The position numbers and the translations under genes are program-made. From Candidatus Gastranaerophilales bacterium (lineage in GTDB: Bacteria; Cyanobacteriota; Vampirovibrionia; Gastranaerophilales; Gastranaerophilaceae), in the NCBI GenBank assembly GCA_944324255.1, contig CALUVM010000008.1:1-64000 (forward strand): a stretch of 64,000 bases of DNA, written 5' to 3'. How positions within the stretch are numbered: position 1 is the stretch's first letter; each line of letters begins with the position of its first letter. The notes beneath the pieces were generated by a model. The model saw only the letters and a program-made list of their open reading frames with translations, ran no database searches and was not told the DNA's origin. Shown here piece after piece: positions 3,531 to 30,068 of the stretch.

Positions 3531-3772
3531 AGTGTTATTGAATTGTCAAAATGTGGCATATATAATATATAAGGATATGTTATATAATGTTGTTGACATT
3601 GAAGACACGCAGAATAAATATTAGCAGGGGTGTGTATAGCTGCATGCCTTTTGTAGCAAGGTTTTTGCCTTTCGGGGGGGGGGGTAGGAGCCTCTAATAG
3701 TAATAGTTTTAAGCGTTTTGCGAATTGCTCCGGTCAAAGCAGCGTGTACTCTCAACTTGTAAGGGGGTACGC
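3531..3772 (+). promoter_or_regulatory. Flagellin 1 leader with 11-base G tract
   Basis: This leader aligns with the region upstream of the second flagellin (27881 onwards). Both begin AGTGTTATT, then have AAAATGTGG with an A or C and ATATA, then GGATATGT at the same spacing. About 142 bases later both have TTTTGCC, two or three bases, C, and a G tract (11 G here at 3674-3684), then a GCCT. The ribosome site AAGGGGG is at 3761-3767. No sigma-28 consensus fits cleanly. The 3315-3530 part of the gap has only the dispersed 16-mer and a weak hairpin near 3420-3450. Confidence 0.7.
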
Positions 3773-6700
3773 ATGATTACTCTGGGTACTGATGTTGCGG
3801 ATTTAATCCTCCAGCGCACATTGTATGATAATACCCTTGGACTAAACTCGGCAATTGAGCGTATGACAAGCGGGTACAAAGTTAATCATGCTAAAGATAA
3901 TGCTGCAGGTTATTCCATAATTACAAATTTAAATACAAAAATATCTTCAATGCTTCAAGTTCAGCAAAATGCTTCAGACGGACTTTCTATGCTGCAAACT
4001 GCAGAAGGCGGGCTGGAGCTTATAGAAGAATTGCTGCAAAGGTTAAGAAAACTTGCAATGCAGGCATCTGACGGAAGCTATGATACTCAATCCCGTGATG
4101 CAATGCAGGCGGAAGCTGATGAGATAATTGAACAAATTGCTCAAATCCGTGACAGTATAGAATTTAACGGAATGAATCTTTATGAAATTCCTGCGGAGGG
4201 AGCTTCTTCCGTGGCTTCGGCTGCAAATAAAGCAATTAATCGTCTTGCAAGAGCTGCAAAAACAAGCACTAATACAATATCATATGACATATATCCATCT
4301 GTTGCTCCGGCTGTACAAACTTCAGAAGCAGAATTATCAACTGATGAAGTCCCATCAATACGAGCAGCCGATATTGAAGGGGCAGAGTCTTTTGCCTCAA
4401 ACGAAACCAAAACTATTGTAATAGACGGAGTTGAATATACAATCAAAAACCGTCAAGCTATTACATCTGATTTATCTTACACAAAAGACAATACAACAGG
4501 GGAGATTACCTTTATCGGTAATTATTTTGAAATCAGAGGTCAAACTGATGCTGCGCATAATATTGTAATCCAGGGAGTTTATAACTATGTTTACGGTGGT
4601 GATTTGGATGACAAAATTGAAACATTCAACAGCTCCAGTGTTTATAATAGATTTTATGGCGGGAAAGGGAATGATACATTGACGGCAAAAGCCAGCAGTA
4701 CATATCTTTATGGAGAAGACGGTAATGATATCCTGAATATAGAAGCTGATGCTTCTTTCCCGAGAGCATTTGGCGGTGCAGGAGATGATACTTTTAATAT
4801 TTATATAAATTCTAATCCTCATTTTCCGATAGAAGGTAATGACGGGGATGATATATTCAATCTTTACGGCTCAAATCCGTCAAGTATGACAATAGACGGC
4901 GGAGCAGGAATAAATACTGTTACGGGAAACAGAGGCACGGCGACTTTAATAAATGTTGTAGGCGCTAATGCAGGAACGGTAGATCTGGTAAGCGGCGTAG
5001 AGCAGACTATTAATATAGGAGGTATAGATTATACGGTTTCGACCAAATCGGCTACCGGACAATTAGTATACAAAATTAATAATTCAGGACAGATTGAATT
5101 CTCCAGGCAATCAGGAAGTATTGTAGTCAAAGGTGATGAAAATAAGAAACACAATGTAAAACTAAATGACGGTATTATTTTTTATGGCGGAAATATGGGT
5201 GATACTATTAATGCAGAGGGTAACGGAGATACTGCTATATATTGCGGAAGCGGTAATAATAAAATCACCTCAAGATATTCATATATTTACTGCGGGGCAG
5301 GTAATAACGAGATTACTGCTACATACTATAATTCAATTTATTCCGGAACCGGTGTAAATAACGTAATTTTGACACAGTACGGTAACTATGTAGAGGGGGG
5401 AAACGGTACATTAAATGTAACGGTTAAAGGTAGTCAAAATACTCTTTATGCCGAAGGCGGAAATAATTCCGTTACTTTAAATAATAATAACTATAACTTG
5501 ATTTACGGGTTCGGAGATGCTGACAATGCTCAGGGGGTAAAGCTTGCTCCGAGCGGAACTCAAACAGTCGATATTGACGGAGTGAGTTATGAAGTTCAAA
5601 ACAGAATATCATCACATTCAACGGCAATGTTGTATTCTAAAAATCCTGTTACAGGGGAGTTAACCCTTGGAGGCAGATATATTACAATATACGGGCAGAA
5701 AGATGTTAAGCATAATGTTAATGTTATCGGTTTTGTAGCGTATTTTTACGGCGGAGATTTAGATGATACAATTACTTTGAATGCAATTTCTTCTTATATC
5801 TATGGTGAAGGCGGAAATGATACAATTGTTGGCGTATATGGCGATAATATACATGGCGGTGACGGGGATGATATATTAACAGGAACCAGTATCTACGGAG
5901 ATGCAGGCAATGATATAATAACAGTAAACAAAGCCGGAGGTACAGTAAACGGCGGTACTGGAGATGATACGTATAATATAGATTATAAAGCCAATATCTC
6001 AGACGACGGCGGGAATAATATCTATAATATTAATACTGATAATGCAAGCATTTCTGGCGGCTCCGGAAATGATACATTTTACGTAACGGGAAATAACAAT
6101 ACCATATTCGGCGGCGGAGGGGATGACTATTTTGTTGTAGATGGTGATAACAACCAGATAGACGGGGGAACCGGTAATAACTACTACATCATAAACGGCT
6201 CGGGTACAAGTTTTTCAAATGTCAGCCGTGACCCTAATACCGGCGGAATCTCTTTTACTTATTCGGGTGAAGTCAAAACATTTACTCTTAATGGTAAAAC
6301 ATATACAGTTACAAATAACCTATCAGGCTCAAATATGCTTCAGTACTCGCTTAATCCGAATACAGGAGTAATTACTCTTAATGGTTCAAATTTCAAAATT
6401 GACTCTGCGCTGGATGAAAGTGCAATTCTTAACCTCCGTGGCGACAATAATATTGTAAATGGCAGTAATTTAGATGACCGTATCACCGTTGAACAGGGCT
6501 CAAACAATATTATTAACGGGCTTTCAGGTGATGACAGTTTAACTATGAATAGTGCCAATAACTCAATAAACGGTGATGACGGAAATGATACAATAACTTT
6601 GAACACTTCTACCAATCTTTCTGTAACCGCAGGTACCGGCAATGATATTTTGAATATAAATTCCGATAACAATACTAATATTGATGCCGGCGGGGGAAAT

Positions 6701-7762
6701 AACAGAATTACTGTTTCGGGGGTGCAAAATAACATTACGGCTGACAACGGAAACAATACTATTACTGTAAATAAAGACTCAAATACAGTTACAGCAGGTG
6801 ACGGCAATAACCGTTTTGTTATAACCGGTTCATCTAACGTAATCACTGCCGGAGGCGGCGCAAACAGTATTGGTATTCAAGGAGATAACAATAATTTAAC
6901 TGCTCAAAATGCAGCAGGTACGATTAATATATACGGAAACTCTAACACTGTAACTAACACCCGTGGTGAAAACGAAGTTGTAGTTAAAGGTAACGGAAAT
7001 AATTACACAACAATGCTCGGCGATAAAGATATTACCGTAAACGGTGATAATAATGAGCTTTTAACAGGCTCCGGCAATGATAAAATTGAGATTAAGGGTG
7101 ACGGGAATATTGCAGAATCAGTATCCGGTGAAAATGAATTCAGTGTACGCGGGGACGGAAACACAATTCAAGGCGGTTCAGATGTCGATAATATTACTAT
7201 TAACGGTAATAACAATTCTGCTTCGGGCGGTGATTCCAGTGATTCGTTCATGATTTCCGCAGGGCGGGGAAATATTGTTGATGGCGAAACAGGTGAACGT
7301 AACACAATTATCAATAACGGCACCGGAACGGTTTTCTCTAATGCTGTAGATATTACGCCAAGACCGTTTGAAGTTAATATCAAAGTAGATATCGGCTCCG
7401 GTGATAATAAATTTATTCATACACAAATAAGCTTTAATCTGTTTGATTTCAGTGTTGATTTTTCTTCTCAGGAAAGTGCACGGGAAAGCCTTGAAGATAT
7501 TGACTCGCTTCTGGAAAACATCCAAAGCCAGATTTTGAACATCGGAACAACTATCAACCGGCTTGAGAATGTTCTTGAGGCACAAACTTTGAAGATTGAT
7601 AACTTAATATCAACCCGTTCGACTATGCGTGATGCAGATATTGCCGAGGAGTCATCAAGTTTTATTAAATATCAGATATTGCAGCAGGCAAGTGCGGTAT
7701 TAATGGAATCTTCCAGAAACCTGCGCTACGAAAATGTTATCGGGCTGTTGTCACAATTGTAG
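3773..7762 (+). CDS. fliC: Giant flagellin with RTX-like repeat insert
   Basis: A flagellar filament subunit of 1329 residues; typical flagellins have 270-550. Residues 1-135 are the D0/D1 core (AIERMTSGYKVNHAKDNAAG, then LQRLRKLAMQ, the TLR5-type segment). The last 95 residues are the C-terminal D1/D0 core (STRSTMRDADIAEE, QILQQASAVLM). Between them, from about residue 213 to 1230, are four modules. Each opens with a linker of the form I-x-G-x-x-Y-T-V and is followed by glycine/aspartate nonapeptides such as GGKGNDTLT, GEDGNDILN and GGAGDDTFN, typical of calcium-binding beta-rolls. Late repeats degenerate to Asn-rich GDNN forms. I chose the ATG at 3773 over an earlier TTG because AAGGGGG precedes it and the flagellin core starts there. 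Transcribed alone. Confidence 0.93.
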   Translation: MITLGTDVADLILQRTLYDNTLGLNSAIERMTSGYKVNHAKDNAAGYSIITNLNTKISSMLQVQQNASDGLSMLQTAEGGLELIEELLQRLRKLAMQASDGSYDTQSRDAMQAEADEIIEQIAQIRDSIEFNGMNLYEIPAEGASSVASAANKAINRLARAAKTSTNTISYDIYPSVAPAVQTSEAELSTDEVPSIRAADIEGAESFASNETKTIVIDGVEYTIKNRQAITSDLSYTKDNTTGEITFIGNYFEIRGQTDAAHNIVIQGVYNYVYGGDLDDKIETFNSSSVYNRFYGGKGNDTLTAKASSTYLYGEDGNDILNIEADASFPRAFGGAGDDTFNIYINSNPHFPIEGNDGDDIFNLYGSNPSSMTIDGGAGINTVTGNRGTATLINVVGANAGTVDLVSGVEQTINIGGIDYTVSTKSATGQLVYKINNSGQIEFSRQSGSIVVKGDENKKHNVKLNDGIIFYGGNMGDTINAEGNGDTAIYCGSGNNKITSRYSYIYCGAGNNEITATYYNSIYSGTGVNNVILTQYGNYVEGGNGTLNVTVKGSQNTLYAEGGNNSVTLNNNNYNLIYGFGDADNAQGVKLAPSGTQTVDIDGVSYEVQNRISSHSTAMLYSKNPVTGELTLGGRYITIYGQKDVKHNVNVIGFVAYFYGGDLDDTITLNAISSYIYGEGGNDTIVGVYGDNIHGGDGDDILTGTSIYGDAGNDIITVNKAGGTVNGGTGDDTYNIDYKANISDDGGNNIYNINTDNASISGGSGNDTFYVTGNNNTIFGGGGDDYFVVDGDNNQIDGGTGNNYYIINGSGTSFSNVSRDPNTGGISFTYSGEVKTFTLNGKTYTVTNNLSGSNMLQYSLNPNTGVITLNGSNFKIDSALDESAILNLRGDNNIVNGSNLDDRITVEQGSNNIINGLSGDDSLTMNSANNSINGDDGNDTITLNTSTNLSVTAGTGNDILNINSDNNTNIDAGGGNNRITVSGVQNNITADNGNNTITVNKDSNTVTAGDGNNRFVITGSSNVITAGGGANSIGIQGDNNNLTAQNAAGTINIYGNSNTVTNTRGENEVVVKGNGNNYTTMLGDKDITVNGDNNELLTGSGNDKIEIKGDGNIAESVSGENEFSVRGDGNTIQGGSDVDNITINGNNNSASGGDSSDSFMISAGRGNIVDGETGERNTIINNGTGTVFSNAVDITPRPFEVNIKVDIGSGDNKFIHTQISFNLFDFSVDFSSQESARESLEDIDSLLENIQSQILNIGTTINRLENVLEAQTLKIDNLISTRSTMRDADIAEESSSFIKYQILQQASAVLMESSRNLRYENVIGLLSQL

Positions 7763-12734: not shown

Positions 12735-14267
12735 ATGAGGAAACACGGCTTTTCATTAATGGAAATGATGGTTGTGCTGCTTATTACGGCTATTATAGCT
12801 GCAGCAACAGCACCAATGGTAAGTAAGAAGATGATGAGAGATGCAGGAGCCGGTAACAGCCCATGGATGTATGCAGGTCTGAACGGTTCTATCGTATATA
12901 ACCCTGACGGGAATACTAATAAAACTGCAATGGTAGGAGCAGTGGATGCTTCAAAAGCTAATAATGCGAAATTTTATATAGAGTCAAGCAGTACCGAACC
13001 TCAAATGGCTATCGGAAGTTCCGGCGGAGCTAATGTGGTTGGAATATCGTCAATTAACACTTCAGTGGCAATATCGAACAATTCTATTTCCAGTACGGGA
13101 ACGGTTGCTGTAGGATATGATGCTAATGCAAAATCAACAGACGCAGTTGCTATTGGAAGAATGGCAGAAGGTCGAGAAACATCAACTGTTGCAATTGGAG
13201 GTCTAGCAACTGCAGAAGGTCAGTCAGGAATTGCTATCGGTCGAAAAGCTTATGCTAAAGGTTCTTACTCCTTTGCAGTAGGTGATGCTTCAACCGCATC
13301 GGGCGGTGATTCAATAGCTTTTGGAACAAAATCATCAGCAACAGAGACAAAGGGAATTGCAATTGGATTAGAAGCTGCTGCAAGTGGAAGTAATACCCTT
13401 GCAATCGGCTATTCGTCATCTGCATCAGGCGGAAATGCACTTGCATTAGGTACATCAGCAATAGCAAGTGGTAGTCGGGCTGTCTGTATAGGGAGCGATG
13501 CAGAAGCTTCTGGTGCTAGCTCTTCAATAGCTCTCGGAGCTAGTTCAAATGCTTTAGGGAGTTATTCTGTTGCTATTGGAGGGAGTTCTGAAACTTCCAA
13601 GCAAGCAAAATCATCTATTGCCATTGGATTTAGTGCAAACGCAGGTTCCAAAAATTCAATAGCTATTGGACCAAATGCAGAAGCAACGGCTTCAAATTCT
13701 GTAGCAATAGGCGGCGGTGCTAAAGCAAGTTCCTCGCACCAGATAGTACTAGGTACAAGCAATGCGACAATTTATATTCCCGGAAAGCTAATTGTTGAAG
13801 GGGAAACTATACTGGCAAGAAGCAGTGGTGATATATGGGGAAGATTTTTTGGTTACGGTAACTATAAATATGGTAAGATAGGACGTACAACAGGCGGACA
13901 TTTGTATTATGACCCATCTGACCGCAGATTGAAAAATGTAGGTGAAGTCTTTACAGGTGGTTTAGATAAAATAAAGAAATTACAAGTCTACAACTACACC
14001 TTCAAAAATGACCCTGAAAAGACCCCTCATGTCGGAGTTATAGCTCAAGACTTACAGAAAGTTTTCCCTAATGCGGTAATGAAAGGAGAAGACGGTTTCT
14101 TAAGAATCAGATGGGATGAAATGTTCTATGCCATGATTAATGCGATAAGAGAACTTGATGTTAGAACTGCTAACGATACGACAGTATTAAAGAAACAAAA
14201 TCAAGAATTAGAAAAACGCATTGCTAAGCTTGAAAAAAGATTAGCTGAACTTGAGAAAAATAAATAA
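12735..14267 (+). CDS. Prepilin-anchored YadA-like adhesin with S74 self-cleaving chaperone
   Basis: 510 residues. The N-terminus, MRKHGFSLMEMMVVLL, is a type IV prepilin cleavage site (G/F, with Glu at +5) and hydrophobic helix. Residues about 120-350 are YadA/Hia-type head repeats of about 14 residues with cores such as AVAIG, GIAIG and SVAIGG. Residues 395-475 are the peptidase S74/endosialidase chaperone, with SDRRLKN at the expected autocleavage Ser, then HVGVIAQDLQKVFP. The last 30 residues are a heptad coiled coil. Likely an envelope or pilus-tip trimeric adhesin; that role is inference. A ribosome site, AAGAGGAAT, precedes the ATG. It is monocistronic with its own terminator. Confidence 0.88.
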   Translation: MRKHGFSLMEMMVVLLITAIIAAATAPMVSKKMMRDAGAGNSPWMYAGLNGSIVYNPDGNTNKTAMVGAVDASKANNAKFYIESSSTEPQMAIGSSGGANVVGISSINTSVAISNNSISSTGTVAVGYDANAKSTDAVAIGRMAEGRETSTVAIGGLATAEGQSGIAIGRKAYAKGSYSFAVGDASTASGGDSIAFGTKSSATETKGIAIGLEAAASGSNTLAIGYSSSASGGNALALGTSAIASGSRAVCIGSDAEASGASSSIALGASSNALGSYSVAIGGSSETSKQAKSSIAIGFSANAGSKNSIAIGPNAEATASNSVAIGGGAKASSSHQIVLGTSNATIYIPGKLIVEGETILARSSGDIWGRFFGYGNYKYGKIGRTTGGHLYYDPSDRRLKNVGEVFTGGLDKIKKLQVYNYTFKNDPEKTPHVGVIAQDLQKVFPNAVMKGEDGFLRIRWDEMFYAMINAIRELDVRTANDTTVLKKQNQELEKRIAKLEKRLAELEKNK

Positions 14268-14418: not shown

Positions 14419-16401
14419 ATGGAATATTTTCTTTTAGCGATAGGAATATTACTTACCGGAGCTTTTTTTGCTCTTATTACAAAAGAAGAGTTTAAATTGA
14501 AAGTAAGTTCCATTTTTGCGTTTATGGGTTTGTCAACAGCAGTTTTTCCGGCTGTTTGGACTTTGATTACGGGAAATTTTCTGGACAAGACAATTGAACT
14601 ATCTAAAATGTTCGGGAAAATAACACTTGTTCTTGATCCGCTATCTGCTATTTTTATTATAGTTATATCGGTTATGAGTTTTATCGGTATAATTTATGCT
14701 AACGGATATATGAAGCCGTATTTGAATAAGGGTATGAGTATTTCGTCGCATTGCTTCTTTTTACTTTTATTAATAGCTTCAATGCTCGGTGTTACAGTTA
14801 TTCAAAACGGTTTATTTTTCCTGATTGTCTGGGAAATTATGTCACTTTCCTCATTCTTCCTTGTTATATTTGAAGGGGAAAAGAAAGAGGTAATCTCTGC
14901 AGGAATTAAGTATTTAATCTATATGCATTTTTCCGTAATCTTTATAACTGCAATGGTTGTTCTGTTATCTAACAGCTCTACGAGTCTGAATTTTGCGGAT
15001 TTTGCAAAAGTTTTGCATAACAATCCTCATCTTGCAAATATTGCGTTTCTATTAGGTTTTATCGGGTTTGGAATAAAAGCCGGATTTGTACCTTTTCATA
15101 ACTGGCTTCCTGATGCGCACCCCGCAGCGCCGACTCATGTATCCGGAATTATGTCCGGAGTCATGATTAAAACCGGTATCTACGGGATTTTAAGGCTGAT
15201 TCTTTTAATCGGGATTCCGTCAAAATTTGTTTCGTATACAGTGCTTGTAATTGCGGTAATCTCCGCTTTATACGGGGTTTTATATGCAATAGGGCAGCAT
15301 GATATCAAAAGGCTGCTTGCATACCACAGTATTGAAAACATCGGTATTATAGGAATTGGTATAGCACTCGGTATGCTCGGGCTTGCTTACGGAAACCCTA
15401 TTGTTGCTATGCTCGGTTTTGCGGGCGGTATTATGCATGTGCTTAACCATTCTATATTTAAAGAATTATTATTCTTTGCTGCAGGAAGTACATATTTAAA
15501 AACTCATACAAGGAATATTGAAAAACTCGGCGGTTTGATTAAACCTATGCCTGTAACAGCTTTGATGTTTATAATAGGATCTGTTGCAATATGCGGACTT
15601 CCGCCTTTTAACGGATTTATAAGTGAATTTTTGATATATGCGGGTATGCTTCAAGGTCTGCCATCTCCCGAGGTCAGTTTGTTTATTACACTTGTAATCT
15701 CTCTGGCTGCTCTGGGTATGGTCGGAACAATGGCAATACTTTGTTTTACAAAAGCTGCAGGTATAATATTTCTGGGTGAAGCCAGAAGCGAAGAAGCAAG
15801 AAATGTTAAAGAAGATTCTTCTTTGGTAATGCTTATTCCTATGGGAATTTTAGCTCTGCTAACTCTTATAATAGGTGTTTTCCCGCAGTTTTTTATAAGT
15901 TTTATACTTGTTCCTGTTACCCAGTTTATAGCAGGTGACAGCAAACTTATGATACTTAATTCAATAGTTTCTTTAACTTCTTCAATAAGCTGGTTATTCT
16001 TATTCTTAATAATCGGAATAGCGTTCCTCTATGTTTTAAGATATTTTATAAATAGCAGAGAAGAAGAGCATACAACATGGGGCTGCGGGTATGACAGACC
16101 GTCCGGCAGAATGCAGTATACGGCATCATCTTATGCAAGCCCGTTTATTACAACTTTAAAACCGCTATTTAAGAGAGTTTCTCATATTAAAAAACCTAAG
16201 GATTTATTCCCGAAGGAAGCTTATTATGAACAGGAAATTGAAGATATTGAAGAAGCTTATATAGTAAAACCTATTCTTAAATGGGATGAAAAAATTCTTA
16301 CAAAATTTGAGCGGATTCAAAACGGAAATATTCAACAATATATTTTAGTCGGACTTGTATTTTTGCTTGCGGCTATTATCGGAGTGATTTATTTCGGCTA
16401 A
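14419..16401 (+). CDS. Ehr/Hyf-like complex, antiporter-like subunit (HyfB/NuoL-type)
   Basis: A 660-residue integral membrane protein with about 14-16 helices. It belongs to the family of ion-translocating subunits shared by Mrp antiporters, complex I and group 4 hydrogenases. Markers include a helix with WEIMSLSSFFLV, and FGIKAGFVPFHNWLPDAHP with the functional Lys near residue 220. GQHDIKRLLAYHSIENIG is the next conserved core segment. The C-terminus extends into a HyfB-like tail with a CGYDRPSG segment. It is the first gene of a six-gene operon, followed after 19 bases by the NuoH-like gene. Predicted to move H+ or Na+ across the inner membrane. Confidence 0.9.
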   Translation: MEYFLLAIGILLTGAFFALITKEEFKLKVSSIFAFMGLSTAVFPAVWTLITGNFLDKTIELSKMFGKITLVLDPLSAIFIIVISVMSFIGIIYANGYMKPYLNKGMSISSHCFFLLLLIASMLGVTVIQNGLFFLIVWEIMSLSSFFLVIFEGEKKEVISAGIKYLIYMHFSVIFITAMVVLLSNSSTSLNFADFAKVLHNNPHLANIAFLLGFIGFGIKAGFVPFHNWLPDAHPAAPTHVSGIMSGVMIKTGIYGILRLILLIGIPSKFVSYTVLVIAVISALYGVLYAIGQHDIKRLLAYHSIENIGIIGIGIALGMLGLAYGNPIVAMLGFAGGIMHVLNHSIFKELLFFAAGSTYLKTHTRNIEKLGGLIKPMPVTALMFIIGSVAICGLPPFNGFISEFLIYAGMLQGLPSPEVSLFITLVISLAALGMVGTMAILCFTKAAGIIFLGEARSEEARNVKEDSSLVMLIPMGILALLTLIIGVFPQFFISFILVPVTQFIAGDSKLMILNSIVSLTSSISWLFLFLIIGIAFLYVLRYFINSREEEHTTWGCGYDRPSGRMQYTASSYASPFITTLKPLFKRVSHIKKPKDLFPKEAYYEQEIEDIEEAYIVKPILKWDEKILTKFERIQNGNIQQYILVGLVFLLAAIIGVIYFG

Positions 16402-16420
16402 ACGGGAAGAAAGGTAGATT

Positions 16421-17338
16421 ATGTATCTGTTAATAATAAATATATTAATACTTTTAATAGCACCATTTTTGATGATGGGTGTGATAAAGAAAACAAAGGC
16501 TTTCTGGGCAGGAAGAAAGGGCGTTTCTATCTGGCAGCCTTTATGGGACTTTTTAAGATTATTGAAAAAAGATGCCGTTATCAGTAAGACAACTTCCTGG
16601 GTTTTTAAGTTCGCCCCTGTAGCAGGTCTTGGAACAGTTCTTTTTGCTTCACTTTTTGTCCCTATGGCAGGAGGAAAGGCAATTATTAATTTCCCGTTTG
16701 CATTTATAGTTTTTGCTTATATTTTGGGATTTGGCAAATTTTTCTCTCTGCTTGCGGCACTGGATACAGGAAGCAGTTTTGAAGGTATGGGAGCTTCAAG
16801 AGAAGCGTGTTTTTCTACAATAGTTGAACCGGCATTTTTTATTGCTATGGCATCTATTGCTGCGCTGACACAGATGTATACTTTTGAATCATTTAAATTA
16901 ATTTTACAAAACGCCGGAGTATACGGGTACTTAATTATTATTCTTGCATCGGCAGCGTTGTTTATTATGCTTCTTATTGAAGGCTGCAGAGTTCCGGTTG
17001 ACGATCCTGCTACACATCTGGAATTAACAATGATTCATGAAGTTATGATATTGGATAATTCCGGAGTAGATTTAGGGTTAATAAGCTGGGGGGCTGCAAT
17101 TAAGATATTTTTATTTGAAGCTTTGATTGCGAATCTGCTGCTTCCGTTCAATCTCGCTCCTGCTGTTGCGATATTAGCTTTTCTTGCTGTCGTATTTGTT
17201 CTTTCGGTTTTAATCGGAACTATTGAATCTTCAATAGCAAGGTTTAGAATGACACATGTTTTTGAATTTATTTTTATAATGACTCTTACTGCGCTTTTAA
17301 TACTTGCGCTTGTAACATACAGAATATACGGAAGTTAG
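16421..17338 (+). CDS. Ehr/Hyf-like complex, NuoH/HyfC-type membrane subunit
   Basis: 305 residues with about 8 helices. This subunit sits at the junction between the membrane arm and the Fe-S arm. The diagnostic segment EGCRVPVDDPATHLELTM (residues about 187-204) is almost invariant in HycD/HyfC proteins, as is FEGMGASREA near residue 124. The ribosome site GAAAGG precedes the ATG. The next gene starts 7 bases after the stop codon, supporting one transcript. Confidence 0.92.
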   Translation: MYLLIINILILLIAPFLMMGVIKKTKAFWAGRKGVSIWQPLWDFLRLLKKDAVISKTTSWVFKFAPVAGLGTVLFASLFVPMAGGKAIINFPFAFIVFAYILGFGKFFSLLAALDTGSSFEGMGASREACFSTIVEPAFFIAMASIAALTQMYTFESFKLILQNAGVYGYLIIILASAALFIMLLIEGCRVPVDDPATHLELTMIHEVMILDNSGVDLGLISWGAAIKIFLFEALIANLLLPFNLAPAVAILAFLAVVFVLSVLIGTIESSIARFRMTHVFEFIFIMTLTALLILALVTYRIYGS

Positions 17339-17345
17339 GTAAAAA

Positions 17346-18053
17346 ATGGAAAATATCTTTATAATTTTACTGGGTTTATCAATGATTTATATAGCCTCAA
17401 CAAGCCGGCTGGCAGCTCATGTTAATATGCTTGCGGCGCAAGGATGGCTGCTATTTTTTATATCTCTTACCGGGTTTATAAAAGAGCCATGGTTTGAGTG
17501 GTCTATTTTTACGAATTTGCATTCTTTTTCTGTAAATATAGCCCATGTAACAGGACTTTTATTTATAGTAGCGGAAACTCTTATTGTTAAGGCTTTTATT
17601 ATTCCGTGGTTTTTGAAAAAAGTTATTAAAAAGACAAATTCGCATAGAGATACAGATGCTCATATTCCGCATTTTTACTGCCTTGTAATTTCAAGTTTTA
17701 TTCTGTTTGCAGGGTTTTTAATTGCAAATATTAATACTCCGGCATTTATGCTTGTATCTCCGATGTATTTCGGTGTATCAATTGCGATTATTATCACAAG
17801 CTTGTGGCTTATTACAATTAAGCATACGGTCTTATCAAATGTTATCGGGTTTATTACAATGGAAAACGGAATTTTTCTTTTGTCGCTTTCTGTTGCAAAG
17901 GAAATGCCGATAATTATTAATATGGGCGTTCTTCTTGATATATTTATTGCGGTGTTTATATTGGGAATGCTTGTAAGAGAAATTAATAAAGAATTTGAAG
18001 ATTTAGAGGTTTCACATTTATCAGATTTGAAGGATTACGAATACAATGACTAA
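17346..18053 (+). CDS. Ehr/Hyf-like complex, HyfE-type (NuoK-like) membrane subunit
   Basis: 235 residues with about 7 membrane helices. The size and topology match HyfE, whose C-terminal half is NuoK-like (VIGFITMENGIFLL with the conserved Glu, then LDIFIAVFILGMLV). It overlaps the following gene by 8 bases. The family is poorly conserved in sequence, so the assignment rests on length, the MENGIFLL motif and the operon position. Confidence 0.85.
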   Translation: MENIFIILLGLSMIYIASTSRLAAHVNMLAAQGWLLFFISLTGFIKEPWFEWSIFTNLHSFSVNIAHVTGLLFIVAETLIVKAFIIPWFLKKVIKKTNSHRDTDAHIPHFYCLVISSFILFAGFLIANINTPAFMLVSPMYFGVSIAIIITSLWLITIKHTVLSNVIGFITMENGIFLLSLSVAKEMPIIINMGVLLDIFIAVFILGMLVREINKEFEDLEVSHLSDLKDYEYND

Positions 18054-19479
18054 TATTATTTTATTATTTCCGATTTTTGCATGTTTAATATTATGTTTGT
18101 TTAAAAAGGATTATTTAAACAACTTGATGATAAATATATATGCGGGATTGCATTTTATAATATCAATGGCATATTTATTCAGAATTGAACTGGTTCCGAG
18201 CTGTAAGTGTGCATCATTTTTCGGGGTGAATGATTTGAATGTTGTTTTCCTTGCCGTAATGTCAATAGTGTTTTTGGCTGTAGCAATATACAACAACGGT
18301 CATATGAAAAATGTTAACGCTGACGGGAAGAAGGTCAGACATTATACTTATATGGTTTTACTGTTCGTGCTCTCTATGACAGGTGCAATTTTAAGTAAGA
18401 ATCTGGGTTTGACCTGGGTATTTATTGAAGGTACAACTTTAGCCAGCGCATATTTAATATATTTTAGAAAAACAAAACACTCTATTGAAGCTGCGTGGAA
18501 ATATGTATTTATTTGTTCAATAGGTATTGCGCTTGCTTTTGTCGGAATTATTCTTCTTACAATTGCAACAGGAAGTTTGAATTCCTTATACTATGTAGAT
18601 TTATACAGGAACGCTCAATTATTTAATCCGTTCTGGCTTAAATTATCTTTTGTATTCATTCTGGTCGGAATCGGAACGAAAATGGGGCTGGCTCCAGTAC
18701 ATTTCTGGCTTCCGGATGCACACGCAGAAGCACCTTCTCCTATTTCAGCTCTGCTTTCAGCTTCATTATTGAATTCGGCTTTCCTTATGATTCTTGCGGT
18801 ATTCGGAATAATGGTTGCGGCAGGATGTGATTCATTTGCGAGGTTAATGCTTCTTGTGATGGGATTTTTATCTCTGTTTGTAACGGCGGTATTTGTTTAT
18901 CACATTAATAATTATAAAAGAATGCTTGCGTATTCTTCTATCGAAAATATGGGTATTCTTGTGATAGGTACAGCTCTCGGCGGTTTGGGAATGCTTGCGG
19001 CAATTATTCATCTTGCAGGACATTCTCTTATTAAAGCTTCTTTCTTCCTTACATCCGGAAATATTCTGGATTTATACGGGTCAAAGAAAATAAAAAATGT
19101 TACGGGGCTTTTGAAAACAGATAAAACTACAGGCTGGCTCTGGGTGCTGTCTTTTGTAGGAATTGCCGCCTTGCCTCCTTCTGTACTTTTTATAAGCGAG
19201 TTTTTAATAGTTAAATCGATGTTTTTAAGCGGGAAATATGTTCTCTGTGCATTGTTTTTAATTCTTCTTACGATAATTATTTACGGGCTTGGAAGAGCCG
19301 TTATTACTATGAGTTTTTCTTCTGTTGAAAAAGAACCTGAAGGTTTAAAAAACGGAGTAAAATTAAACTGGATGATGTATGCACCGCAGGCTGCAATGTT
19401 AATTCTGGCATTTGTTTTAGGTCTATATATGCCGGAGCAGGCATCTGTTTTCTTTGTAAATGCTATAGCAGGATTTTAA
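18046..19479 (+). CDS. Ehr/Hyf-like complex, second antiporter-like subunit (HyfF-type)
   Basis: 477 residues, about 14 helices. The conserved block GTKMGLAPVHFWLPDAHAEA (Lys near residue 212) and NNYKRMLAYSSIENMGILV mark the Mrp/NuoN/HyfF family. The operon therefore has two antiporter-like subunits (this one and the HyfB-like protein); a HyfD equivalent is absent. Translation is probably coupled to the gene before it through the 8-base overlap. Confidence 0.9.
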   Translation: MTNIILLFPIFACLILCLFKKDYLNNLMINIYAGLHFIISMAYLFRIELVPSCKCASFFGVNDLNVVFLAVMSIVFLAVAIYNNGHMKNVNADGKKVRHYTYMVLLFVLSMTGAILSKNLGLTWVFIEGTTLASAYLIYFRKTKHSIEAAWKYVFICSIGIALAFVGIILLTIATGSLNSLYYVDLYRNAQLFNPFWLKLSFVFILVGIGTKMGLAPVHFWLPDAHAEAPSPISALLSASLLNSAFLMILAVFGIMVAAGCDSFARLMLLVMGFLSLFVTAVFVYHINNYKRMLAYSSIENMGILVIGTALGGLGMLAAIIHLAGHSLIKASFFLTSGNILDLYGSKKIKNVTGLLKTDKTTGWLWVLSFVGIAALPPSVLFISEFLIVKSMFLSGKYVLCALFLILLTIIIYGLGRAVITMSFSSVEKEPEGLKNGVKLNWMMYAPQAAMLILAFVLGLYMPEQASVFFVNAIAGF

Positions 19480-19494
19480 TTAAAGAAGGTATAT

Positions 19495-20958
19495 ATGAAT
19501 TGGATAATTACTGAAAATAACAAAAGAATTAATGCAAACGATATTCCGACTCTCTCAATTGAAGAGATAAAATGCGATGTTGAGAAAATGAATATGCGCT
19601 TAATCGGATTTTTGGGAAAACAAGAGTTTGCAAATGTAAGGCTGTTCGTGATTATGGCGGATGATAAAGTCGGAAAACTTTATATAACATCTTCTTTATT
19701 CACACCTGATATGAAATCTTATGAGTCATTTACTCAAAAATTTCCGGCTTTTCATATTTTTGAAAGAGAGTTTTATGAAGAATTCGGGATAAAACCTCTT
19801 AACCATCCATGGTTAAAGCCTGTAAGGATAAATCAAGATAAGTACCCTTTCTTTGAAATGAAAGGGGATGAAGTTCATGAAGTTGCGGTCGGTCCTATTC
19901 ATGCAGGCGTAATTGAACCGGGACATTTCAGGTTTATGTGCCACGGTGAAAAAGTTTACGATTTGGAAATTATGCTCGGCTATCAGCATAGAGGGATTGA
20001 GGAACTGTTTTTAAACTCAAAACATTATAATAACAGGCTTGCTGAATCTGTTTGCGGGGATTCTGTTATAGCTTATAATATGGCATATTCTCAGGCGATG
20101 GAAACTCTTTCAAATACACCTGTCAGCTCAAAAGCACAGATTATAAGAAGAATAGCTCTTGAAATGGAAAGGGCTGCCATTCATATCGGTGATATGGGCG
20201 CAATTGCGGGGGATATTGCTTACTTAATGGGTTCTTCAATATTCGGAGTAACAAGAACTCTTGTTATTAATACAATGCTTGAAATCTCCGGCAGCCGTTT
20301 TGGACGGGGTTTGATAAATGTCGGAGGAGTTAATTTTGATATTGATAAAAATATGGCAGAAAAGATTCTCAAGACTCTTGAAGAAGTATCGAAGACTGTT
20401 GACAGAACAACAAAAGTGATGCTTAAATCTCCTACAGTTCTTTCAAGATTGGAAAGAACCGGTGTCGTAAGTTCGGAAAACGCCAAAGCTTTAGGTGCTG
20501 TAGGAATGGCAGCAAGGGCTTCAGGTGTTGATATAGATTCCAGATTCGATTTCAATGATAACTGGTATACATCACTTGATGTTGTAAAACCGTTCAGAGC
20601 AACAGGAGATGTGCATTCACGTTTTAGACTCAGATATAAAGAAGTAAAACAGTCTATACAAATAATTAAAAAATTGCTTTCAAAACTTACAGAATATAAT
20701 AACGAACCACTGATGAGCCAGCCGTCGGTAAATCTTGAACCAAATTCTCTGGTTGTTTCAATAGTTGAAGGCTGGAGAGGTGAAGTAGTTCATGCAGCAC
20801 TAACAGGAGCTAACGGTGAACTTTTGAGATATAAAATGAAAGATCCGTCTTTTAACAACTGGTATATGCTTGCTCTAGCTGTCAGAAATAACGGGGTTTC
20901 CGACTTCCCGCTCTGCAACAAGAGTTTTAATCTCTCATATTGCGGGAATGACTTATAA
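19495..20958 (+). CDS. Ehr/Hyf-like large subunit without complete Ni-Fe ligands
   Basis: 487 residues: a NuoC-like domain (1-115, FEREFYEEFGIKPL) fused to a NuoD/HycE-like domain, as in HyfG. In true group 4 hydrogenases the Ni-Fe site is held by CGxC and DPCxxC. Here the first is C187-G-D-S190, so the second Cys and the following His are replaced. The C-terminal site reads N479-L-S-Y-C-G-N-D-L487, with no CxxC spacing. The chain ends right after it, with no peptide for a maturation protease. The structural context GYQHRGIEEL and DPSFNNW is kept. This pattern matches Ehr complexes, so hydrogen turnover is unlikely. The true electron partner is unknown. Confidence 0.9.
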   Translation: MNWIITENNKRINANDIPTLSIEEIKCDVEKMNMRLIGFLGKQEFANVRLFVIMADDKVGKLYITSSLFTPDMKSYESFTQKFPAFHIFEREFYEEFGIKPLNHPWLKPVRINQDKYPFFEMKGDEVHEVAVGPIHAGVIEPGHFRFMCHGEKVYDLEIMLGYQHRGIEELFLNSKHYNNRLAESVCGDSVIAYNMAYSQAMETLSNTPVSSKAQIIRRIALEMERAAIHIGDMGAIAGDIAYLMGSSIFGVTRTLVINTMLEISGSRFGRGLINVGGVNFDIDKNMAEKILKTLEEVSKTVDRTTKVMLKSPTVLSRLERTGVVSSENAKALGAVGMAARASGVDIDSRFDFNDNWYTSLDVVKPFRATGDVHSRFRLRYKEVKQSIQIIKKLLSKLTEYNNEPLMSQPSVNLEPNSLVVSIVEGWRGEVVHAALTGANGELLRYKMKDPSFNNWYMLALAVRNNGVSDFPLCNKSFNLSYCGNDL

Positions 20959-20999
20959 GTAAGGATAACAAATTTGATATTATTTAAAGGAAAAATAAA

Positions 21000-21734
21000 A
21001 TGTTTGATACGTTAAAATTAAAATATTTTCAAGGGAAACAATATATACCGGATATAAAAAATGCTCCGATGAGGGAACAATTCAGGGGATTCCCGATATT
21101 AAAAAATGAAGGTGATGCAAATGAATCTCTGTGCCCGACCGGTGCTTTAAAAACAAATCCTCTATCAATTGATTTAGGAAAATGTACTTTGTGCGGTAAT
21201 TGTAAGTGTAAATCCGTTCAATTTTCAAATTATTATAAGCTTTCTTCAACTCAGAGAGAAACTCTTGTTATAACAGAAGGAATGACACCGGAGGAGTTTG
21301 AAAAAGCTGCAATAAAGTCAAGAAAAGCAATAAGAAGAGTGTTTTCAAAATCTTTAAAATTAAGACAGGTGTCTGCTGCAGGATGTAACGGCTGTGAAAT
21401 GGAATTGAATGCCTGCTCAAACTGTAACTTTGATATGGGAAGATTCGGTATAGATTTTGTGGCATCTCCAAGGCATGCAGACGGACTGGTTATAACAGGA
21501 CCGATTTCTGAAAATATGGCTTACGCACTTGAAGATTGTTATAAATCAACGCCGAATCCGAAAATTGTTATTCTGGCAGGTGCATGTGCTATTTCCGGCG
21601 GAGTATTTCAGAACTCTTCCAAGCTAAATAGAGAATTCTTAGACAAATACCCTATTGATTTGTATATTCCGGGTTGTCCGGTTCATCCTCTGACTTTTAT
21701 TAACGGAGTTCTGGATTTTATTTCAAAGAAATAG
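21000..21734 (+). CDS. Ehr/Hyf-like small subunit fused to a ferredoxin-type domain (HyfI-like)
   Basis: 244 residues. The N-terminal 75 residues carry one [4Fe-4S] site (C45-P-T-G-A with C62-T-L-C-G-N-C68), in the place of HyfH. The C-terminal part is a NuoB/HyfI domain. It has GCNGCEMELNAC near residue 122, FVASPRHADGLVITGP, GACAISGG and PGCPVHP, the four-Cys set for the proximal cluster N2. The electron path of the arm thus looks intact although the Ni-Fe ligands of the large subunit are not. This is the last gene of the operon; 42 bases separate it from the large subunit. Confidence 0.9.
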   Translation: MFDTLKLKYFQGKQYIPDIKNAPMREQFRGFPILKNEGDANESLCPTGALKTNPLSIDLGKCTLCGNCKCKSVQFSNYYKLSSTQRETLVITEGMTPEEFEKAAIKSRKAIRRVFSKSLKLRQVSAAGCNGCEMELNACSNCNFDMGRFGIDFVASPRHADGLVITGPISENMAYALEDCYKSTPNPKIVILAGACAISGGVFQNSSKLNREFLDKYPIDLYIPGCPVHPLTFINGVLDFISKK

Positions 21735-21939
21735 TAAAAATCATACGTTTAATGTAGGTTTCTAATTGTAACAAATCTTTACACGCTATGCGCAATATGG
21801 TAAAATTAGTTGGTTAAGGCTTAATATTTTGTTACAATCTGGCAAATTTATTTGTTTTTGAACTTTAGAAAGCAATATAATGTTAGATGAGTACAGAAAT
21901 TTTAACCCAATTATGAATAAAATTAGGAATTTGGATACT

Positions 21940-23706
21940 ATGAAAAAACAAATATGTTATCTGCTTGCGGCGTTTTGCTTTTTATCAATTGGTAAAGCAT
22001 CTGCTGATCCTATGGCAGGCGGTCTTAATATTGATACTTTGCATGGTTATGAAGCCGGTGCTTTTAACCGTATGGAACAGCAGCAGATTAATAACTTTCA
22101 GATTGACAGAAGTTATGTGCAATCATTAGATGAAGTAACAAAAGATGATCAAATATATGATGCGACAGTAGAAGAAGATGTTGCAAGAGAAGGTGTTTTA
22201 TATAATCCGCACTTCCTTCTTGAAAAAATAAACTTTGAAGGTAATACTCAAATTTCCACGGAAGAACTGGAAAAATTAGGTTTAGAAGTTATTGGAGAAG
22301 ATATTTTCTTTGATGAACTTCTTGAAGTTTGTTCAAAAGTTACAAATTACTACCATTCAAAAGGTTATTTAACATCCTATGCAACAGTTCCTCCTCAGAG
22401 AATTGTTGATGGTGTTGCAACAATCAAGATTATTGAAAGTAAAGTCGGTGAGTTAAATATTGAAGGCGAAAAATGGACCCGTGAATGGTATTTAAGACAT
22501 ATTATTATGGGTAAAGCCGGTTTAAGAGAAGGAGATGTATTTAACGCTAAAAACCTTCAAAGAGCAATGAAAGAAATTAACCGTGAAGACTATGTTCAGG
22601 TTGAAACAGAGGTTGAACGCCAGTCTGAAGGTGAAGAAAATACAGCAATTACACTTAATGTACGTGACCGATTCCCTGTTAATTTAGGTTTTGCCTGGGA
22701 TGATTACGGTCGTTCTTATACCGGTGCTCAAAGAGCTTCATTTGTTGTCGGTATGGATAACTTAACCGGTTTAGGCGATAAGATTTACGGCGGAACAATC
22801 TTATCGTCAGGAGCAACAGGCTGGATGGCAGGATATTCACTTCCGGTGTCATCATACGGAACAAGATTATCATTTGACTTTTCTGATTCTCACGTAAGAT
22901 TGGGCGGTCCATACAGAGCACTGGGTGTTAAAGGTAATGCACAAAGTTATTTCTTCAAATTAACACATCCGCTTATTCAAACTGCTAAATCAGATTTGTT
23001 TGTATATTCAGGTATAGATTTCCTTAACGCAAGCACAACATTCCTTAACAACTCTGCAAGAACTTATCTTTCAGACTACAACTTAAGAGTATGGCGTTCA
23101 GGATTGTATGGTATGACCGATGACGATTACGGAAGATGGATTGGAAACTTTGGTTTTGACTTCGGTGTCGGCGGCGATGGTCATGGTGCTATTCAGGATA
23201 CAACATTTGTTAAATTTACTGCCAATGCGACCCGTGTTCAAAGATTATTCAAAAGAAGTATGGGTGTTGTAAGAGTGGGCGGACAATATTCACCTAATAA
23301 ATTATTTGCAGCTGAACAGATGCAGTTAGGCGGGCCGTACACATTAAGAGGTTATCAACCGGCTGAATTAATCGGTGACTATGGTGTTTCCGGTACTGTT
23401 GAATTTAGAACTCCTATTCCTCTTCTGGACAGAGTATGGCCTTGGCTGGATGACAGATTAAGATTAGCCGTATTCTATGATTGGGGCTGGATTGGAACAA
23501 ACGGTAATGTTTATGATTATCCGCAATCCTTCTTACATACGGTAGGTGCAGGATTCTATATGAACCTTACAGATTGGATTTCTGCTCAAGTCGGTCTTGG
23601 CTTCCCTCTCGGAAGAGATTATAACGAAAATACCGCAAGATTCTACTTCAGTATTAATACAGATTTAGACAGATTAATACCTTTAAGGAATCCGGAAAAG
23701 ATATAA
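21940..23706 (+). CDS. ShlB/FhaC/TpsB-type outer-membrane transporter
   Basis: 588 residues. A signal peptide (MKKQICYLLAAFC...ASA-DP) is followed by an acidic linker. A first POTRA domain (about 90-170, INFEGNTQISTEEL then YYHSKGYLTSYATVPPQ) and a second (IESKVGELNIEGE) precede a C-terminal 16-strand barrel. The barrel keeps the ShlB-type signature QLGGPYTLRGY, the VRGF-equivalent loop motif. The ATG at 21940 gives the signal peptide; earlier in-frame ATGs exist at 21880 and 21913. It would export a TpsA partner through the outer membrane, but no TpsA gene lies in this window. Confidence 0.9.
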   Translation: MKKQICYLLAAFCFLSIGKASADPMAGGLNIDTLHGYEAGAFNRMEQQQINNFQIDRSYVQSLDEVTKDDQIYDATVEEDVAREGVLYNPHFLLEKINFEGNTQISTEELEKLGLEVIGEDIFFDELLEVCSKVTNYYHSKGYLTSYATVPPQRIVDGVATIKIIESKVGELNIEGEKWTREWYLRHIIMGKAGLREGDVFNAKNLQRAMKEINREDYVQVETEVERQSEGEENTAITLNVRDRFPVNLGFAWDDYGRSYTGAQRASFVVGMDNLTGLGDKIYGGTILSSGATGWMAGYSLPVSSYGTRLSFDFSDSHVRLGGPYRALGVKGNAQSYFFKLTHPLIQTAKSDLFVYSGIDFLNASTTFLNNSARTYLSDYNLRVWRSGLYGMTDDDYGRWIGNFGFDFGVGGDGHGAIQDTTFVKFTANATRVQRLFKRSMGVVRVGGQYSPNKLFAAEQMQLGGPYTLRGYQPAELIGDYGVSGTVEFRTPIPLLDRVWPWLDDRLRLAVFYDWGWIGTNGNVYDYPQSFLHTVGAGFYMNLTDWISAQVGLGFPLGRDYNENTARFYFSINTDLDRLIPLRNPEKI

Positions 23707-28244: not shown

Positions 28245-30068
28245 ATGCTAACAATTAACACAAACCTCGCAAGTTTAATAGCACAGGGAAGCTTAACGAA
28301 TTCCACAAACTTACTCAATCAGGCGATTGAGCGAATGACTACGGGATTTAAGATAAACGGCGCAAAAGATAATGCAGCAAATTATTCTATTTCTACCAAT
28401 ATGACAACCAAGATAGGGGCATATCAGGTAGCAGAAGATAATGCTGCTATGGCTCTTGATATGGTAGATACGGCATCTGAATCACTGTCTATTATATCAG
28501 ATGGATTTAGCAGATTAAGAGCTCTAGTTATACAGGCTCGTAATGGAACGTATAAAAGTACTTCTAAGACAGCGTTGCAAAGAGAGGCTTCGTCTTTAAT
28601 AGATGAAATAATTCGAATATACAGGAGTGCGGAATATAATGGTGTGAAACTTTTTGAATCAGGTACAATAGATGGTAATTTTATTAATGAAGTTTCCCAA
28701 AGAGATACCGAACAAATGACGGAACTGTCTTCCGTATCAAATTCTACAGTAATTAGTTCCGGGATGTATTCTATTTCTACACCTCAAGAATTAGCGCTGT
28801 TAGCTGAAATGACGAATAGTGGACGTATTCAAGGCGGAGAATTTGTTCTTGCGGATAATATCGACCTTAGTGAGTATTCGTCGGGTGAGGGATGGACTCC
28901 TATTGGAAATACTACTACAAATACTTTTAAAGGAACTTTTGACGGTAATGGATATGTAGTTTATAATCTTAATATTTATCGCCCAAATGAAGGCAATGTA
29001 GGTCTGTTTGGACGTAGTGAAGGTAATATTAAAAATCTTGGTTTGGAAAATGCAAAAGTCGTTGGGAAAAACGGAACCGGAGCAATAGTTGGTAATGCGG
29101 CAAAAATTACGATTGATAATTGTTATGCTCAAGCTGTAGTTATTTCTGATGATGGCTTTGTCGGTGGATTATCTGGATATCTTATCGGAGCATGTACAAA
29201 TTCTTTTTTTGAAGGAAGTGTAATTGGTGAGGAATTTGTTGGTGGAATTGCTGGTGAAGCAAATTCCGCAGCGGTGCAGAATTGCTATACAAAGGGCTCA
29301 ATATCCGGAAATTCAATAGTTGGAGGAATTGCAGGCAATGTTACGTATAATGCATACATACAGAATTGTTGGGTTCAGAGCGATGTAGCAGGACGCTCAG
29401 AATCTTCTGTTTCAATAGGAGGAATTGCCGGGCACCTGGGCGGGACATCTATAAAAGGATGTTATGTTTTAAATGTTAGTGATGTATCTGCTGTCTTTGT
29501 CGGTGGGGGCTGGAGTACAAAGGTTGAGGATTGTTTTTATAATCAGGCTTATTCAGAAGAAGGTGTTCCTTTAGCTTCAGATAATATTACTGTTACCAAT
29601 GCTCATGTTTGTAGTAATAAACAGCCTTTCAGGGCAACGTATGCAGCAGGTGGAGACAAAGAAATTTGTTGGACAGGTGGTGAATCTAATTTTGAATTTC
29701 AGATAGGGACGACTTCTGAATTAAATTCTTCTGTAAAAATTGATATGACATTTTCACTGAAAGGTATAAGTGAATTAAAAGATATGGATATTGAAAGTGA
29801 AAATTATTTGAAGATAATAGATAATTTTATAAATATAATATCCGGTAAATCAACAGTACTGGGGGGTGTTCAAAACAGGTTATTCAGTGTACTTGAAGAG
29901 ATATCAATCCAGTATGATAATCTTGTTTCATCCCGCTCAACCCTTAGAGATGCGGATATAGCGGAAGTCTCAAGTGAGTACATCCGCCAGCAGATACTTC
30001 AGCAGGCGAGTGCAACCCTTCTTGCGACAGCCAATCAATCTCCTGCAATTGCGCTGCAGTTGATTTGA
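28245..30068 (+). CDS. fliC: Flagellin with GLUG-repeat insert
   Basis: 607 residues. The N-terminal 145 residues form the D0/D1 core (MLTINTNLASLIAQ, AIERMTTGFKINGAKDNAAN, FSRLRALVIQ). The last 95 form the C-terminal core (SSRSTLRDADIAEVSSEYI, QILQQASATLLA). From about residue 170 the insert starts with a beta-helix-like segment (GWTPIGN, FKGTFDGNGY). Six or seven GLUG-type repeats of about 25 residues follow from about 252 to 440, such as FVGGIAGEANSAAVQNCYTKG and IVGGIAGN. GLUG repeats occur in surface adhesins and proteases. The leader is shared with the giant flagellin, so the two may be co-regulated or alternately expressed. Confidence 0.92.
   Translation: MLTINTNLASLIAQGSLTNSTNLLNQAIERMTTGFKINGAKDNAANYSISTNMTTKIGAYQVAEDNAAMALDMVDTASESLSIISDGFSRLRALVIQARNGTYKSTSKTALQREASSLIDEIIRIYRSAEYNGVKLFESGTIDGNFINEVSQRDTEQMTELSSVSNSTVISSGMYSISTPQELALLAEMTNSGRIQGGEFVLADNIDLSEYSSGEGWTPIGNTTTNTFKGTFDGNGYVVYNLNIYRPNEGNVGLFGRSEGNIKNLGLENAKVVGKNGTGAIVGNAAKITIDNCYAQAVVISDDGFVGGLSGYLIGACTNSFFEGSVIGEEFVGGIAGEANSAAVQNCYTKGSISGNSIVGGIAGNVTYNAYIQNCWVQSDVAGRSESSVSIGGIAGHLGGTSIKGCYVLNVSDVSAVFVGGGWSTKVEDCFYNQAYSEEGVPLASDNITVTNAHVCSNKQPFRATYAAGGDKEICWTGGESNFEFQIGTTSELNSSVKIDMTFSLKGISELKDMDIESENYLKIIDNFINIISGKSTVLGGVQNRLFSVLEEISIQYDNLVSSRSTLRDADIAEVSSEYIRQQILQQASATLLATANQSPAIALQLI

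Follow-up and report, generated by a model that had tools for sequence, protein, structure and literature searches.

The locus raises the question of what a membrane complex built like a hydrogenase can do once its Ni-Fe site has been dismantled. It lies in the window (the whole stretch of 64 000 nucleotides that was analysed) of a 1.89 Mb genome, 99% complete, of a Candidatus Gastranaerophilales bacterium (Melainabacteria), a gut organism with Cyanobacteria among its relatives. Six ORFs, all on the + strand, occupy positions 14419-21734 with intergenic gaps of at most 41 bases. They were assigned with Pfam and NCBIfam to HyfB, HyfC/NuoH, HyfE, HyfF, a NuoC-NuoD fusion of the HyfG/HycE type and NuoB/HyfI, and the Hyf-like six-gene membrane complex of the original prediction was recovered in full:

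14419..16401, +, HyfB-like antiporter subunit, 660 aa (NF005086 hydrogenase 4 subunit B, 4e-166, below cut-off)
16421..17338, +, HyfC/NuoH-like membrane anchor, 305 aa (Pfam/NCBIfam)
17346..18053, +, HyfE-like membrane subunit, 235 aa (NF008556, 2.7e-17)
18046..19479, +, HyfF-like antiporter subunit, 477 aa (Pfam/NCBIfam)
19495..20958, +, HyfG/HycE-like large subunit, NuoC-NuoD fusion, 487 aa (HycE 4.8e-41, MbhL 1.8e-38)
21000..21734, +, HyfI/NuoB-like small subunit, 244 aa, with a fused N-terminal ferredoxin-type extension (Pfam/NCBIfam)

The predicted six-subunit complex is an Ehr (energy-converting-hydrogenase-related) complex. Its subunits are homologous to those of group 4 NiFe hydrogenases and complex I, its large subunit is devoid of Ni- and Fe-coordinating residues, and its membrane subunits are Mrp/antiporter-like.

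The operon is preceded by a prepilin-like YadA-head protein and followed by a ShlB-type transporter, neither of which is a redox gene. The former (12735-14267, +) combines YadA head repeats with a prepilin-type N-methylation motif and, at its C-terminus, a chaperone domain of the endosialidase type, an unusual surface-protein mix. The latter (21880-23706, +), of the ShlB/FhaC outer-membrane type, lies immediately 3′ of the operon. About half of the examined loci have a homologue close to Ehr, probably through shared synteny. This downstream transporter was the only recurrent neighbour, and no redox gene recurred beside the operon in the neighbourhoods of these loci. Also encoded in the window are two flagellins whose central parts hold very large insertions (3725-7762, + and 28245-30068, +). 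The first, of 1345 aa, has DUF3060 and RTX-type repeat matches between its flagellin ends.

The former Ni-Fe site, iron-sulfur clusters and membrane arm

The large subunit was aligned to E. coli HycE and to its relatives, and the following positions were located:

19915..19917, +, E141, glutamate of the beta1-beta2 loop (HycE E193, MbhL E21), invariant
20053..20064, +, former L1 motif C187-G-D-S190 (HycE C241-G-I-C244)
20914..20916, +, C474, an invariant Cys not found in HycE/HyfG, in the motif P[LV]CNKSF
20929..20955, +, former L2 motif N479-L-S-Y-C-G484-N-D-L487, which ends the chain (HycE D529-P-C531-Y-S-C534-T-D-R537)

HycE ligands C241, C244, C531 and C534 correspond to C187, S190, S481 and G484. 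The reading of CGDS in place of CGxC and of NLSYCGNDL in place of DPCxxC was thereby upheld: the four Ni-Fe ligands are absent as a set. The first L1 cysteine, C187, is still present in this sequence and is not conserved in the family. Among the 52 aligned large subunits, C, N, A and T all occur at position 187, position 190 is mostly S or T, and positions 481 and 484 are always S and G. New and invariant are D189 (I in HycE), C474, N475 and K476. The C-terminal motif P[LV]CNKSF-LSY[CS]G-DL is kept in relatives down to 38% identity. Two objections to the original prediction were considered. A sequence error hiding the cysteines is contradicted by the changed residues, which all 52 sequences share in intact frames. 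Relocation of the four ligands finds no matching cysteine set, C149 and C474 being the only invariant cysteines.

The canopy residues are also replaced (HycE D529 by N479 in 51/52 sequences, S283 by I229); D529 is strictly conserved, and the S283 position is S, D or N except in MbsL (PMC9474812). The hydrogenase proton path is retained, HycE E193, H284, R395, E437 and R478 being matched by E141, H230, R341, E383 and R428. The HyfG-like chain terminates at HycE position 537 (R537) and carries no cleavable extension, HycE itself being 569 aa long. HycE is processed after Arg537, so the present gene directly encodes the mature-length form. Both the two Ni-Fe-ligating CxxC motifs and the protease-cleaved C-terminal extension of group 4 hydrogenases are therefore missing, and the predicted Ehr complex of this genome cannot be a NiFe hydrogenase. 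In AF2 models, the site region of HyfG had a pLDDT <50, and confidence around the site was also low for HyfI. Long open frames that appear to add fusions to HyfG in high-GC relatives were inspected and set aside, as they suggest read-through in high-GC DNA and not extra domains.

The small subunit had been described as complete. All its cluster cysteines are indeed present, and it is more than complete, with one [4Fe-4S] motif in its N-terminal ferredoxin-type extension:

21132..21203, +, ferredoxin-type [4Fe-4S] motif C45-P...C62xxC65xxC68
21384..21395, +, proximal-cluster C129xxC132, at hydrogenase spacing, ungapped vs MbhJ
21585-21587, +, proximal-cluster C196 (alignment)
21675-21677, +, proximal-cluster C226 (alignment)

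These eight cysteines are invariant in 53 sequences, and the spacing of the proximal-cluster loop is identical to that of MbhJ/HycG. Order-level relatives (loci L018-L020) carry two complete ferredoxin motifs in the small subunit, so the line leading to this genus has probably lost one ferredoxin-type cluster.

A mirror-image variant was observed in family f9 of the same class (loci L138 and L146-L151; seven genomes of seven genera). The large subunit of this family keeps all four Ni-Fe-type cysteines (CGMC ... NLCY[AS]C). Its small subunit is devoid of the proximal-cluster cysteines (NAEE, GDGACNG, PG[ND]PPTP) and of the ferredoxin domain. No CxxCxxC protein adjoins these loci, and HypD was detected in 0/7 genomes. 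Family f9 thus resembles a hydrogenase-like pump having a cysteine site and no visible electron wire, which may be more surprising than the Ehr complex.

In the membrane arm, the HyfB-like subunit keeps GluTM5, LysTM7, LysTM8 and GluTM12, and the HyfF-like subunit keeps GluTM5, LysTM7 and GluTM12. The Glu/Lys pairs of pumping antiporter subunits are intact in both; HycC has lost the antiporter Lys and carries Leu208 (PMC9474812). HyfC retains most E-channel residues of HycD (Y102, E130, E138, E189, E203 and E206), with K for R108 and replacement of E199 and E201.

Conservation and genome context

More than 50 related loci (52 aligned) share the altered site, which is conserved phylum-wide. The six-gene cassette is present across the phylum at ~40-50% identity, and gene order is kept down to ~38%. 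Large-subunit orthologues were found in 37/65 genomes of the genus and in 65 of the 386 sampled across the phylum. Values of dN/dS were 0.02-0.10 for each of the six genes; they are approximate, dS being >1 and near saturation. As judged from these comparisons, the Ehr here is neither a sequencing error nor a product of decay and is conserved as a working complex. Gene order is constant except in some species where an insertion or a relocation has parted HyfG-HyfI from the membrane genes (loci L026, L029, L030, L041 and L065), so the six genes need not form a single operon. The split-operon genomes that were checked retain HyfC.

No hyp genes had been noticed near the operon. The same holds for HypD throughout this genome and in 53 relatives (54 genomes of the genus and order in all), with positive controls detected. 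The NiFe large subunit (PF00374) is likewise absent from the window's genome. This genome has no FeFe hydrogenase either. Ehr and FeFe hydrogenase are seldom found together in the genus: of 65 genomes, 33 carry Ehr alone and 25 FeFe hydrogenase alone, while 5 have both and 2 neither (24/16/2/0 among the good genomes). Genome G016, in which a contig carries hyfB-C-E and ends inside hyfF, was counted as having both and is labelled FeFe in the rpoB tree.

Enzymes of ferredoxin metabolism were distributed in a similar way in the genus. A single-chain PFOR (~1180 aa) occurs in 21/30 FeFe genomes and in 0 Ehr-only genomes, and a second heteromeric 2-oxoacid:ferredoxin oxidoreductase occurs in 29/33 Ehr-only genomes and in 0 FeFe genomes. 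The heteromeric enzymes encoded by the window's genome (L121 5956-8654 and L122 5235-7598, on genome contigs C4 and C1) would reduce ferredoxin in this organism. In the rpoB DNA tree (genome G017 left out; the RpoB protein tree was unresolved), the distributions of Ehr, FeFe hydrogenase and these oxidoreductases divide along two main clades and change only a few times, so Fisher p values for them are not evidence of repeated exchange. Proteins of the PF01512 family (NuoF, HydB, RnfC) were found neither in the window's genome nor in any Ehr-only genome of the genus, which makes NADH input through NuoEF or Rnf unlikely. A separate 11-subunit complex I (NuoA-D, H-N) without NuoEFG is encoded at L073 5764-15302 (genome contig C2).

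Proposed function and alternatives

The best-supported reading, to which we give an even chance, is a ferredoxin-linked ion pump that would reduce an acceptor. The sequences show the composition, the loss of the ligand set, the motifs for the clusters, the residues of proton path and pump, the purifying selection and the distribution; donor, direction, acceptor and pumping go beyond the architecture and are deduced. Reduced ferredoxin would dock on the small subunit and give its electrons to the N-terminal [4Fe-4S] cluster. They would then pass through the four-cysteine proximal cluster into the large subunit, where a small acceptor would take them up in the remodelled pocket. Coupled reduction would drive H+ or Na+ translocation via HyfC-HyfE-HyfB/HyfF. 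The complex would thus offer a ferredoxin outlet to cells of the genus that are without FeFe hydrogenase, Rnf and NuoEF. Loss of the site in 52 loci, low dN/dS, the kept gene order, the invariant fused ferredoxin-type motif, the MbhJ/HycG-like proximal loop, the proton path and the Glu/Lys pairs argue for this reading, as do the ferredoxin-reducing oxidoreductases of the genome and its lack of FeFe hydrogenase and PF01512 proteins. Against it, neither an acceptor nor a conserved enzyme beside the operon came to light, and the AF2 models are of low confidence around the site. The mutual exclusion of Ehr and FeFe hydrogenase rests on few evolutionary events, and the two occur together in 5 genomes of the genus and in other families of the order. 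The 11-subunit complex I of the same genome could also oxidize ferredoxin. A more specific version is tentative and rather unlikely: with the old proton path kept and the new polar D189, S481, K476 and C474 replacing Ni-Fe, the pocket may have been rebuilt as a metal-free, proton-coupled active site. In one gut Gastranaerophilales clade, ferredoxin would then be discharged by reduction of a small acceptor there in place of H2 evolution.

Complex I-type machines are reversible, and the direction of electron flow cannot be read from sequence. The complex may therefore run in reverse, an ion gradient driving electrons uphill to supply reduced ferredoxin to FeFe hydrogenase, nitrogenase or biosynthesis, as was proposed for gut Melainabacteria (Di Rienzi et al., 2013; PMC3787301). 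We consider this rather unlikely. Thirty-three of the 38 Ehr-bearing genomes of the genus have no FeFe hydrogenase to feed, so Ehr there does not serve that enzyme, and feeding it, one published role of Ehr, cannot hold for most of the genus. The pocket would also require an electron donor.

Reduction of sulfane sulfur or polysulfide, as by archaeal MBS, is doubtful. MBS likewise derives from group 4, has a dismantled Ni-Fe site and receives electrons from ferredoxin; C474 is invariant here, and HyfI C139 is conserved within the order but not beyond it. MBS catalysis involves a three-cysteine proximal cluster, formed by a loop three residues shorter, and MBS lacks the MbhL E21 glutamate (PMC7684303). 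In the present complex, however, the loop is ungapped against MbhJ, and the equivalent E141 is invariant in 52 sequences. MbsL also matches the large subunit much more weakly than HycE or MbhL.

Two further readings are both very improbable. A formate dehydrogenase-Ehr complex with NuoE/NuoF-like subunits was proposed for Margulisbacteria and Saganbacteria (PMC6349859), and in Geobacter sulfurreducens the levels of Ehr subunits increase with formate (PMC7894505). This arrangement is at odds with the missing NuoF family (PF01512) in this and all Ehr-only genomes of the genus, with the lack of an fdhA gene adjacent to the operon and with the lack of a recurring redox neighbour in the loci examined. 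A redox-independent ion antiporter, with the hydrogenase-like arm kept only as a scaffold, would accord with the conserved Mrp-like membrane subunits and the vanished Ni-Fe site, but a scaffold would not need the iron-sulfur cysteines of the small subunit, all of which are invariant.

A quinone reductase is scarcely credible. The fold and architecture are those of complex I, but the quinone His (Nqo4 H38) and Tyr (Y87) are replaced by I140 and G188, both invariant, and NuoD of the separate complex I of this genome keeps both His and Tyr. Quinones are reported to be absent from gut Melainabacteria (PMC3787301). The idea of a cryptic NiFe hydrogenase, a decayed pseudogene or an error of sequencing has nothing in its favour except homology and can be dismissed: more than 50 independent assemblies carry the same residues, the frames are open, purifying selection is strong and HypD is absent.

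Relation to known systems

The original prediction of an Ehr-like, non-hydrogenase and probably ion-pumping oxidoreductase agrees with the sequences; its novelty does not stand, as the complex belongs to a kind known since 2013 and already noticed in this lineage. In gut Melainabacteria, a complex I of 11 subunits was described alongside a NiFe-type complex of six subunits without hydrogen-binding motifs (Di Rienzi et al., 2013; PMC3787301). The present complex shares with it the lineage, the number of subunits, the defect and the accompanying 11-subunit complex I. Compared by description, the genomes differ in that those of 2013 have an FeFe hydrogenase. Ehr was later reported in four Melainabacteria genomes (Matheus Carnevali et al., 2019; PMC6349859). 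The Ehr complexes of Marreiros 2013 and of the latter study also have the group 4 architecture, antiporter-like subunits and no Ni-Fe-coordinating residues. In contrast to them, the present genome encodes no NuoF-like partner, the operon has no fdhA beside it, and one [4Fe-4S] motif is fused to the small subunit. No report of a measured substrate of Ehr complexes was found in the literature searched. What is added here concerns the site in detail, the proton path, the lack of partners and the distribution, none of which was found in that literature.

The Pyrococcus furiosus MBS (PMC7684303) is likewise derived from a hydrogenase and has lost its Ni-Fe site. MBS is ferredoxin-fed and pumps ions, two properties proposed here; unlike MBS, the present complex has a four-cysteine proximal cluster and the loop glutamate and is without the full Mrp subunit set. 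The best structural and sequence match is E. coli formate hydrogenlyase/hydrogenase-4 (HycE, HyfBCEFGI), with the B-C-E-F-G-I set and the proton path in common. In contrast to the E. coli enzymes, the four Ni-Fe cysteines and canopy residues D529 and S283 are replaced, the C-terminal extension is missing, HyfA, HyfD and HyfJ are absent, and a ferredoxin-type extension on HyfI takes the place of a separate HyfH. Ehr complexes have been regarded as linking hydrogenases to complex I in evolution. This lineage offers a compact case: the cassette has six genes, its conserved site residues are accessible to mutation, and some sister genomes have an FeFe hydrogenase while others have none.
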